This document shows positions 454-31,169 of a stretch of DNA of 31,197 bases, piece by piece; the first letter of the stretch is position 1, and every line of letters starts with the position of its first letter. Position numbers and translations under genes: made by a program. The DNA lies in the IMG/VR virus record IMGVR_UViG_3300025131_007715, positions 1 through 31,197 of that record. The stretch is one strand, 5' to 3'. The notes under the pieces are model-generated. The model worked only from the letters and a program-made list of their open reading frames with translations, was not told where the DNA came from and did not search any database. The stretch comes from a virus.

Positions 454-511
454 AGCCGGCACCGGCTGGCCAGCACTTATGCCGTATCCCACAAAAAGAA
501 ATCATTTTTGG

Positions 512-540
512 TTGCAATGTCTCGCCAGAGGTGAGACTAT
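512..540 (+). promoter_or_regulatory. Candidate sigma70-like promoter
   Basis: TTGCAA at 512-517 and GACTAT at 535-540 are 17 nt apart, with TG at 532-533 in the extended -10 position. The match to consensus is partial (4 of 6 and 3 of 6). The support is mainly the exact 17-nt spacing, the AT-rich patch at 491-517 in a GC-rich genome, and the position just ahead of the 62-aa gene leader. This is inference from sequence only. Confidence 0.3.
519..537. promoter_or_regulatory. Operator-like inverted repeat
   Basis: GTCTCGCC-AGA-GGTGAGAC is an 8-bp dyad with one G:T position and a 3-base centre. It fills the spacer and touches the -10 of the candidate promoter at 512-540, where a repressor would block polymerase. 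The ribbon-helix-helix candidate encoded at 1240-1527 is the nearest possible ligand, but nothing in the sequence proves that link. Confidence 0.35.
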
Positions 541-609
541 GTAGATGTCGACGGGCGGTTGGAGCCGCCAGCGCCGACAGAAATCGGCTGAAAAGGAGCC
601 AACCTCATG
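539..609 (+). repeat. 71-bp duplicated leader, copy 1 (two hairpins, RBS and start codon)
   Basis: These 71 bases are identical to 801-871 and end in the ATG of the following gene. The copy contains hairpin 1 (GGCGG 554-558 with CCGCC 565-569), hairpin 2 (GCCGA 573-577 with TCGGC 584-588) and then AAAAGGAG before the ATG at 607. GGCT (586-589) can also pair with AGCC (597-600), which would place the ribosome site in a small stem-loop. It looks like a portable 5' untranslated regulatory cassette. Confidence 0.85.
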
Positions 610-795
610 GAGAGCCACACAGTCAACCTCACTTCTGACGAAATCGAGGACATCCGCTTTGCGCTCGCACGGCTGGCAGACAGCAACGAGGGGTTCTGCG
701 AGGCGAACGTGCTCGCACTCGCAGACCGGACAGCGCTCATCAAACAAGCCAACCGCATGCGGCGCTTGGCACGGAACATCACCAGACAGCGATAG
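607..795 (+). CDS. Small helical protein (62 aa)
   Basis: A compact charged protein predicted to be mainly alpha-helical, with a basic C-terminal helix (RMRRLARNITRQR). No known family was recognised. The ATG at 607 is well set by the SD AAAAGGAG about 8 bases upstream. The gene lies entirely between two identical 71-bp leaders, so recombination between them would remove exactly this gene and put the next one behind the same leader. Similar small proteins are common in phage early/accessory regions, sometimes acting as host-takeover factors or antitermination helpers, but nothing here supports one of those roles specifically. Coding status is likely from the RBS and clean frame; function unknown. 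Confidence 0.65.
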   Translation: MESHTVNLTSDEIEDIRFALARLADSNEGFCEANVLALADRTALIKQANRMRRLARNITRQR

Positions 796-800
796 CGACC

Positions 801-871
801 ATGTAGATGTCGACGGGCGGTTGGAGCCGCCAGCGCCGACAGAAATCGGCTGAAAAGGAGCCAACCTCATG
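801..871 (+). repeat. 71-bp duplicated leader, copy 2
   Basis: Exact copy of 539-609, offset by 262 bases, with hairpins at 816-831 and 835-850, the AAAAGGAG ribosome site and the ATG of the zinc-ribbon gene at 869. The preceding gene ends at 795, so this copy is intergenic. No promoter-like sequence or operator dyad precedes this copy, unlike copy 1. Confidence 0.85.
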
Positions 872-1243
872 ACCACCATTATCACAGTCAGCGATTACCA
901 CGCCGTTCCCAATCCGACAGAGCGGTTCCTTGCGACCGCACGAGCCCGCAGCGTCGATGTCCAGTGCACCGAGCATGAGTACCCCACCGCCCTCGACTTC
1001 ACCGACCTCACCGACAATGAGGCTCACGCTATCGCTCGCGAAGACGCGGGACTGCTCTTCTGGGTGTACCGCTCTTCTGAGCGCGACAACTGCGATCTCT
1101 GCAAGACGCCCCTGAGCGCCGACGACACATGCCCCAACTGCGGCGTGTACCACGGCGACGAGTGCCCCGGATGTGGTCAGCGCGGCTACCACGCCGACCC
1201 GTGCGATCGCATCGAAACGACGGGCAACTCGTCGATCCCTTGA
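869..1243 (+). CDS. Zinc-ribbon protein (124 aa)
   Basis: The C-terminal half carries three CxxC pairs (C75/C78, C88/C91, C99/C102) followed by H108 and C112, enough for two zinc sites of the zinc-ribbon kind. The N-terminal 65 residues are acidic and helical with no known match. Zinc ribbons of this type bind nucleic acid or proteins, so a role as a small regulator or adaptor is plausible but not shown. The ATG at 869 is set by AAAAGGAG in the duplicated leader. The last codons lie in a 24-bp sequence repeated at 1502-1525, and the stop TGA (1241-1243) overlaps the proposed TTG start of the next gene (TTGA), implying coupling. The odd C-terminus (ending NSSIP) is written in a different frame of the repeat and may be a product of a past recombination. 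Confidence 0.7.
   Translation: MTTIITVSDYHAVPNPTERFLATARARSVDVQCTEHEYPTALDFTDLTDNEAHAIAREDAGLLFWVYRSSERDNCDLCKTPLSADDTCPNCGVYHGDECPGCGQRGYHADPCDRIETTGNSSIP
1217..1240 (+). repeat. 24-bp direct repeat, copy 1
   Basis: Identical to 1502-1525. It contains the dyad CGACG (1218-1222) / CGTCG (1230-1234) with a 7-base loop. It overlaps the 3' end of the zinc-ribbon gene and its last base is the first base of the TTG start of the next gene. In the frame of that next gene it reads DGQLVDP, the same residues that end that gene. Confidence 0.9.
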
Positions 1244-4377: not shown

Positions 4378-4775
4378 CAGGACTCCTTCTTCGTGGGCTT
4401 CTTCTTACCACCGGCCTTGCTTTTCGGCCGCCAGCTTTTCGATGTTTTCGATGTTTTCGATGTTTTCGATGTTTTCGGCTTCGGCTTCGGCTTCGGCTTC
4501 GGCTTCGGCTTCGCCAGCGGAGGCGGGGGCGTCGTCTCGTAGGCCTCGTTCTCCGGCGTGACCGGGTCGTCGGCCACGAACCTGCCCTTCGTGTCGTGAG
4601 CGCGCGGGTACTTCTCGGCCCGCGCCTGCTTCACGGTCTCCTCGCACAGCTTCCCGGTGGGCACGATCCCGTGCGACCGCTGCCACTGCTTCACTGCCTG
4701 CCGATCGGACCACCCGGTGGCCCCGAAGTCAGAGAGCTCGAGTCCCGCCTGTTTGTATTCGGTGCGCCTGCTCAC
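4377..4775 (-). CDS. PG-binding-like N-terminus with basic KP/TSK repeat tail (132 aa)
   Basis: Residues 25-50 (RQAVKQWQRSHG, PTGKLCEETV) resemble a short peptidoglycan-binding domain, where a helix with xVKxxQxxxG is followed by (V/T)G and a second helix. From residue 89 the protein is low complexity: (KP)n to about 101, then KTSK units to about 114, and a lysine-rich end (KAGGKKKPTKKES). The tail is strongly basic and could bind DNA or anionic polymers. The start is GTG at 4775, 4 bases after AGGAGG, which overlaps the stop of the giant gene 8 bases upstream. It could be a virion-associated cell-wall binder or a DNA-condensing protein. The repeat tract invites length variation between relatives. 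Moderate for coding, low for function. Confidence 0.55.
   Translation of the reverse strand: MSRRTEYKQAGLELSDFGATGWSDRQAVKQWQRSHGIVPTGKLCEETVKQARAEKYPRAHDTKGRFVADDPVTPENEAYETTPPPPLAKPKPKPKPKPKPKTSKTSKTSKTSKSWRPKSKAGGKKKPTKKES
4436..4509. repeat. Two abutting coding microsatellites
   Basis: Four copies of the 9-bp unit TTTTCGATG (4436-4471) run into six copies of the 6-bp unit TTCGGC (4474-4509). Both unit lengths are multiples of three, so slippage would change the number of TSK or KP units without breaking the frame of the gene that contains them. Confidence 0.95.
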
Positions 4776-30245: not shown

Positions 30246-31169
30246 TCAATCCCAGAGCAGCGCGGCAATCCGCCCCGCGTCGTCGCGCCGTGCGTCGTCA
30301 TAAATGATGGTCGTTTCCGGCTTTGCGTGTCGCGCGAACCGCTGCACTGAGCGGATGTCGCCGCCGGTCAGATCCAGCGCACGCGTCGTTGCCGAATGCC
30401 GAAGAGCATGCGCCCCGCGCGACTTCACCCCGGCCGCAGCACAGGCCCGGCGCACCACCTCGTACACCGCGGCCCCGGACATCGGCCTGCCCTTCCCTGC
30501 GCGATCCAGGCGACAGAACAGCGGCGCAGAGGCACCGATCAGCAGGGGGTGCACGTCGAGCCACGCCTCCACGGCCCCGAGAACGGGCTCAGGGGCCGTC
30601 AGGAGCCGTCTGTCGTCGTCGCCCTTGCCCAGAACGTCTATCCGCCCGTCGCGGACGTCTCCGACCCGTAGAGATGCAACCTCGGCCCGCCTCAGGGCCA
30701 GACCGTACGCGACCCGCACCAGGGCGCTGTCTCTGGCGCCCATCTGATCCGCGGCCGCCACGATCCGCTGTACGTCTGCGGGCGGATACCCGGCCGTATC
30801 CCTGTGCGCCCTGGCCTTCAACCCGCGCACGTCCAGCTGCCAACCGATGATTCCCACGTGGCAGGCCAGCCGGCAGAGGGATCGAAGGGCGGCGAGAGCG
30901 CGGTTGATGGTAGCCGGCGACAGGCCGCGCTCTTTGCTCAGGTGGTCTCGATACGCCAGGACCGTACGACGGGCGGTGAGGTAGCCACCGGCAAAGAGTG
31001 CAGCGGTGGCCGGCCCGGGATCCGATCCGCTCCACTGAGCGAACCGGGCCAGCTCGCCGGAGTAGGCCCGACGCGTGGTCTCCTTCGAGACCGAAGCGAT
31101 CCAGTCACTCGCCAGCCCCGAAGCAGCAACAACCACTGATCCGCTGCGATACACCGTGACGTCGCTCAT
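30246..31169 (-). CDS. int: Tyrosine recombinase / phage integrase (307 aa)
   Basis: Cuts and rejoins DNA by a 3'-phosphotyrosine link. All catalytic positions are visible: R160 in GLALRRAE, K182 in GKGDDD, H254-x-x-R257 in HALRHSATT, H281 in FARHAKPE and nucleophile Y290 in TTIIYDD. The N-terminal SAM-like core-binding domain spans about 20-115 (with SKERGLSPATINRALAALRSLC at 78-99). No long N-terminal arm-binding domain is seen, as in XerC/D-like and some simpler phage integrases. ATG at 31169 with GGAGAT about 7 bases upstream. Indicates a temperate phage, or a dimer-resolution enzyme recruited by the phage. The attP site was not identified in this window. High confidence. Confidence 0.92.
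   Translation of the reverse strand: MSDVTVYRSGSVVVAASGLASDWIASVSKETTRRAYSGELARFAQWSGSDPGPATAALFAGGYLTARRTVLAYRDHLSKERGLSPATINRALAALRSLCRLACHVGIIGWQLDVRGLKARAHRDTAGYPPADVQRIVAAADQMGARDSALVRVAYGLALRRAEVASLRVGDVRDGRIDVLGKGDDDRRLLTAPEPVLGAVEAWLDVHPLLIGASAPLFCRLDRAGKGRPMSGAAVYEVVRRACAAAGVKSRGAHALRHSATTRALDLTGGDIRSVQRFARHAKPETTIIYDDARRDDAGRIAALLWD

Follow-up and report, generated by a model that had tools for sequence, protein, structure and literature searches.

The window, a complete IMG/VR virus record (31,197 bases, 65% GC), carries a leader of 71 bases in two identical copies, and the final base of each copy is also the third base of the start codon of a different gene. The duplicated leader is real and its duplication is probably recent; the mechanism proposed below is one that we infer. 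We give roughly even chances to the explanation that the repeat serves an early operon as a start-associated expression-control leader, present twice through recent gain or duplication of a segment consisting of the leader and one gene. The two copies and the surrounding features are as follows.

486 to 520, plus strand: stretch with 31% GC before copy 1, AT-rich and a possible promoter region
535 to 609, plus strand: leader copy 1, 75 bp (the 71 bp from 539 equal copy 2), through the ATG of the gene at 607-795
607 to 795, plus strand: gene for 62 amino acids between the leader copies; no family
797 to 871, plus strand: leader copy 2, ending with the ATG of the gene at 869-1243
869 to 1243, plus strand: gene for 124 amino acids after copy 2, with CxxC pairs and a weak zinc-ribbon resemblance below the cut-off

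Positions 539-609 and 801-871 are identical in 71 of 71 bases, RBS and start codon included, just as the sequence-only reading had claimed. When the comparison is extended to 535-609 and 797-871, 74 of 75 bases agree, the sole mismatch being T538 versus C800. The 71-bp pair is the longest exact repeat within the record; the chance expectation for an exact repeat of this length is about 7e-32, and the repeat cannot be due to chance. Both copies contain the RBS AAAAGGAG (591-598 and 853-860) and the ATG (607-609 and 869-871), with AGGAGCC ending at 600 before the ATG at 607 and at 862 before the ATG at 869. The right edge of identity is the third base of both start codons, after which copy 1 continues with GAG and copy 2 with ACC. 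On the left, exact identity starts at ATGTAG. This start-stop opens each copy (539-544 and 801-806), and an SD-like AGAGGTGAG precedes it in copy 1 and is absent before copy 2. A third copy was not found in the record, even when the search was limited to the last 19 bases and tolerated three mismatches. A simple assembly artefact is disfavoured because the flanks are unique and the copies differ by one mismatch.

The large late genes supplied the codon usage against which coding potential was scored. The gene at 607-795 scored as coding and the gene at 869-1243 as weakly coding, while the ORF at 545-853, which reads through the leader, and the minus-strand ORF at 502-885 obtained non-coding scores. 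A leader peptide, encoded either by 545-853 (coding score -29 bits) or by 21 amino acids from 807, was ruled out, and so was a homologous gene pair behind the leaders, as the two products share no alignment. No known family was found for either product. For the 62-amino-acid product a single-sequence model predicted a helical fold with moderate confidence; the quality of structure P0002 was too poor for use. Just past their starts both genes share an in-frame CACAGTCA (618-625 and 883-890), a degree of 8-mer sharing seen in 0.8% of random pairs of 30-base stretches; predicted folds would allow it to pair with GAC..TGT at the leader's left edge. The control-leader explanation is favoured because the identity of 71/71 bases lies in non-coding sequence in front of two coding genes, and because it runs up to the third base of both start codons and no further, while the encoded proteins share no alignment.

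The placement of the leader in an early operon derives from distant relatives. On the minus strand of the record terminase, portal, capsid and integrase genes are recognisable, the tyrosine integrase being located at the other end (30246-31169). The nearest portal proteins are those of Cellulosimicrobium phage DS1 (22.5% identity) and Microbacterium phage Shocker (30%), and the record probably belongs to an actinobacterial virus, as far as the host can be inferred. In DS1 and Shocker early and late genes lie on opposite strands and run towards each other. Because of this convergence, the plus-strand genes at 22-1527 would by analogy form the 3'-terminal part of an early operon, and the record resembles the late module of a tailed phage together with this part. 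About 14 kb of early genes would then seem to be missing, if the genome has 45 kb.

With two copies only, which are identical, selection and recent duplication are inseparable, a point against the control leader. A somewhat unlikely explanation is a neutral recent event, in which a tandem-type duplication or recombination copied the leader when the gene at 607-795 was inserted, so that copy 2 provides no more than an RBS and will decay or be lost. Near-perfect identity over 75 bp, spacers included, is what such an event predicts (95% bounds on divergence, 0.0003-0.07 per site). The region also appears to have a history of recombination, since an exact 24-bp direct repeat (1217-1240 and 1502-1525) stands on either side of the gene at 1240-1527. 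The first 24-bp copy coincides with the 3' end of the gene at 869-1243, read in another frame; in the frame of 1240-1527 it reads NDGQLVDP, and RDDGQLVDP stands at the end of that gene, which suggests that recombination replaced a gene end. Because this gene has its own repeat, gain and loss of one gene through short repeats seems to have happened repeatedly here. The same was proposed for gene 14 of mycobacteriophage Corndog, a single small gene with a 17-bp direct repeat at its flanks (PMC4351075), which gives the neutral event a published precedent. The leader cassette resembles Corndog gene 14 in that one small gene is bounded by a direct repeat and could be gained or lost by recombination; the Corndog indel is visible in relatives with one repeat copy, whereas the leader cassette is without a known relative. 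Against a purely neutral event stands the neat functional boundary, as a random breakpoint at the last base of a start codon would be rare. A functional leader that was recently copied accounts best for the identity of all 71 bases, spacers among them. It had been suggested from the sequence that the identity implies recent duplication or a common control element, a fair reading of which both parts are probably true. The proposal that recombination between the copies could excise one gene also holds geometrically, the excised segment being 262 bp and including the gene at 607-795.

The folding of the leader RNA was analyzed with respect to the following elements.

554 to 569, plus strand: hairpin 1, GGCGG(TTGGAG)CCGCC, in copy 1 (copy 2: 816-831); absent from the minimum-energy fold
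557 to 604, plus strand: predicted sequestor, GGUUGG 557-562 with CCAACC 599-604 plus CC 565-566 with the SD GG 595-596 (copy 2: 819-866)
573 to 588, plus strand: hairpin 2, GCCGA(CAGAAA)TCGGC, in copy 1 (copy 2: 835-850)
586 to 600, plus strand: GGCT(GAAAAGG)AGCC, the SD lying mostly within the 7-base loop (copy 2: 848-862)

Two stable hairpins and a pairing over the SD had been described for each copy. Both hairpins exist, with perfect 5-bp stems and 6-base loops, and GGCT can pair with AGCC. The description was overstated in that the three pairings cannot coexist and that neither the folding energy nor the SD pairing is remarkable. In the minimum-energy fold hairpin 2 is kept and the GGUUGG/CCAACC sequestor takes the place of hairpin 1, which it excludes. 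An alternative fold, weaker by 0.8 kcal/mol, combines an extended hairpin 1 with the GGCU/AGCC pairing around the SD; the pairing of 586-589 with 597-600 in turn excludes hairpin 2, because GGC at 586-588 belongs to its 3' arm. At least two such hairpins were obtained in 1.4% of dinucleotide shuffles and in 4.5% of random windows from this genome. The leader alone has a folding-energy z of -1.95, but 38% of genomic 71-base windows fold as well, and its folding energy is ordinary for a GC-rich genome.

These folds could be read as a bistable RNA switch, in which GGUUGGAGCC/GGAGCCAACC would sequester the SD until the extended hairpin GUCG..GGCGG/CCGCC..CGAC takes the sequestering strand, with a ligand, a protein or upstream translation choosing between the two states. 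That the two mutually exclusive folds are predicted to be nearly equal (-24.6 and -23.8 kcal/mol) is consistent with this, but we regard the switch, including its chooser, as quite improbable. The SD GG is paired at least as strongly as in the native sequence in 20-38% of shuffles, the folding energy does not stand out from the genome, and in the alternative fold a small hairpin still occupies part of the SD. Moreover, no Rfam family scored above the gathering threshold (best RF00043, 24.4 bits, cut-off 55), and identical copies carry no covariation. The predicted fold would thus permit a switch and by itself gives it no support. A broader version, more improbable still, holds that the leader is a new 71-base start-associated RNA element whose two exclusive, near-isoenergetic folds would give many early genes of an undescribed phage group a shared translational switch, its copies being kept identical by recombination that also shuffles single-gene cassettes.

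Alternatively, the 5-6-5 dyads at 554-569 and 573-588 may act at the DNA level and bind a phage or host regulator of the transcription of each gene. The two inverted repeats have the same geometry and lie 19 bp apart from centre to centre, and for the inverted repeats of ESAS elements DNA binding was favoured by Pope et al., as their arms generally do not support RNA pairing (PMC3203893). We nevertheless consider this unlikely: the two dyads differ in sequence, copy 2 sits inside an apparent operon and no promoter-like site was found nearby, a sigma-70 consensus match being absent both from the AT-rich stretch at 486-520 and from the vicinity of the dyads.

The control-leader explanation has precedents in the start-associated repeats of actinophages. 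In cluster K, SAS and ESAS are repeats at the RBS of genes of different families and are confined to non-structural regions; SAS is a 13-bp motif, GGGATAGGAGCCC, present in 11-19 copies and typically located 3-7 bp before a start codon that is mostly ATG, and ESAS is a pair of imperfect 17-bp inverted repeats directly upstream (PMC3203893). The authors left the function of both open; for SAS they considered translation initiation, and for ESAS the binding of DNA (PMC3203893). In Microbacterium cluster EF a SAS/ESAS-like GGGAAAGGACCCC occurs at the RBS in ten copies, its upstream part being weakly conserved (PMC7302621). Similar to cluster K SAS, both leader copies lie at the RBS a few bases before an ATG, within the SAS spacing, and carry AGGAG inside an outer symmetry (GGG..CCC in SAS, GGCT..AGCC in the leader). 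Likewise, the leader has upstream inverted repeats and is one sequence in front of non-homologous genes outside the structural module. It is, however, 71-75 bp long and present in two identical copies, in a record from which most of the early operon seems to be missing. By our own count it differs from the SAS consensus at 4 of 13 bases in the best register: no match to GGGATAGGAGCCC with up to three mismatches was obtained at 586-600 or 848-862 (SAS allows two), and in the whole window such matches remained at chance level in total. Instead of 17-bp ESAS repeats only two separate dyads with 5-bp arms are present. With the cluster EF motifs the leader shares an RBS motif plus a conserved upstream part, but the sequence is different and GGGAAAGGACCCC was not found in it. 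The leader was therefore not filed as SAS, since sequence and length disagree though position and outer symmetry agree. The best reading is that it works like the cluster K and EF repeats with a motif that does not match theirs.

A further case was observed in Shocker (MW507126), in which a SAS-like AGAGATTGGAGA occurs at the RBS of six start-associated sites (886, 2700, 31222, 38702, 41803 and 43755) with up to two differences. Hairpin pairing is kept in some of these sites only, so that the sequence and not the stem appears to be conserved there. These repeats resemble the leader in being repeated at RBS positions in a distant relative, but are shorter and unrelated in sequence. No paper naming Shocker was found in a literature search. 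Together with SAS/ESAS (PMC3203893, PMC7302621) and Corndog gene 14 (PMC4351075), the Shocker sites serve as precedents for a control leader.

Homologues of the leader were not detected by blastn against 50,697 phage records, and against plasmids only 26-base chance matches (E 0.5) were obtained. Exact pattern scans of IMG/VR with a leader 28-mer and with the two sequestor arms gave no hits; these scans used short exact patterns, which detect close relatives only and do not prove the leader to be unique. GGCTGAAAAGGAGCC before ATG was found in 11 IMG/VR stretches, near a rough chance estimate, and on inspection the rest of the leader was absent from them. Neither phage records nor IMG/VR scans yielded relatives of the genes at 607-795 and 869-1243, the IMG/VR scans yielded none of the portal, terminase or capsid, and no relative with a looped-out 607-795 was found. 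Verrucomicrobia loci from an integrase scan of genome contigs were not useful as relatives (33% identity only). The lack of a homologue in these searches, the ordinary fold, the missing SAS consensus and the apparent absence of most of the early operon argue against a control leader.

In the control-leader explanation, a segment of leader and one small gene would have been gained or duplicated recently, probably by recombination, leaving two virtually identical copies. Each copy would supply its gene with the same RBS, start codon and upstream dyads, so that two unrelated genes would share a single control, which most likely acts when translation is initiated. Access to the SD may be modulated by the dyads, either in the form of RNA hairpins or as binding sites for protein, and homologous recombination between the copies could delete the gene at 607-795. 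Actinophages have been known since 2011 to carry start-associated repeats, whose function is still undemonstrated. An exact repeat of this length in front of two unrelated genes would carry the phenomenon to a probable actinophage that is distant from cluster K, and the duplicated leader would offer a natural duplicate for testing such repeats. The shared leader also illustrates how single small genes may be gained or lost while the same control persists. Elsewhere in the record, two short tandem arrays with TTTTCGATG and TTCGGC units were observed at 4436-4520.
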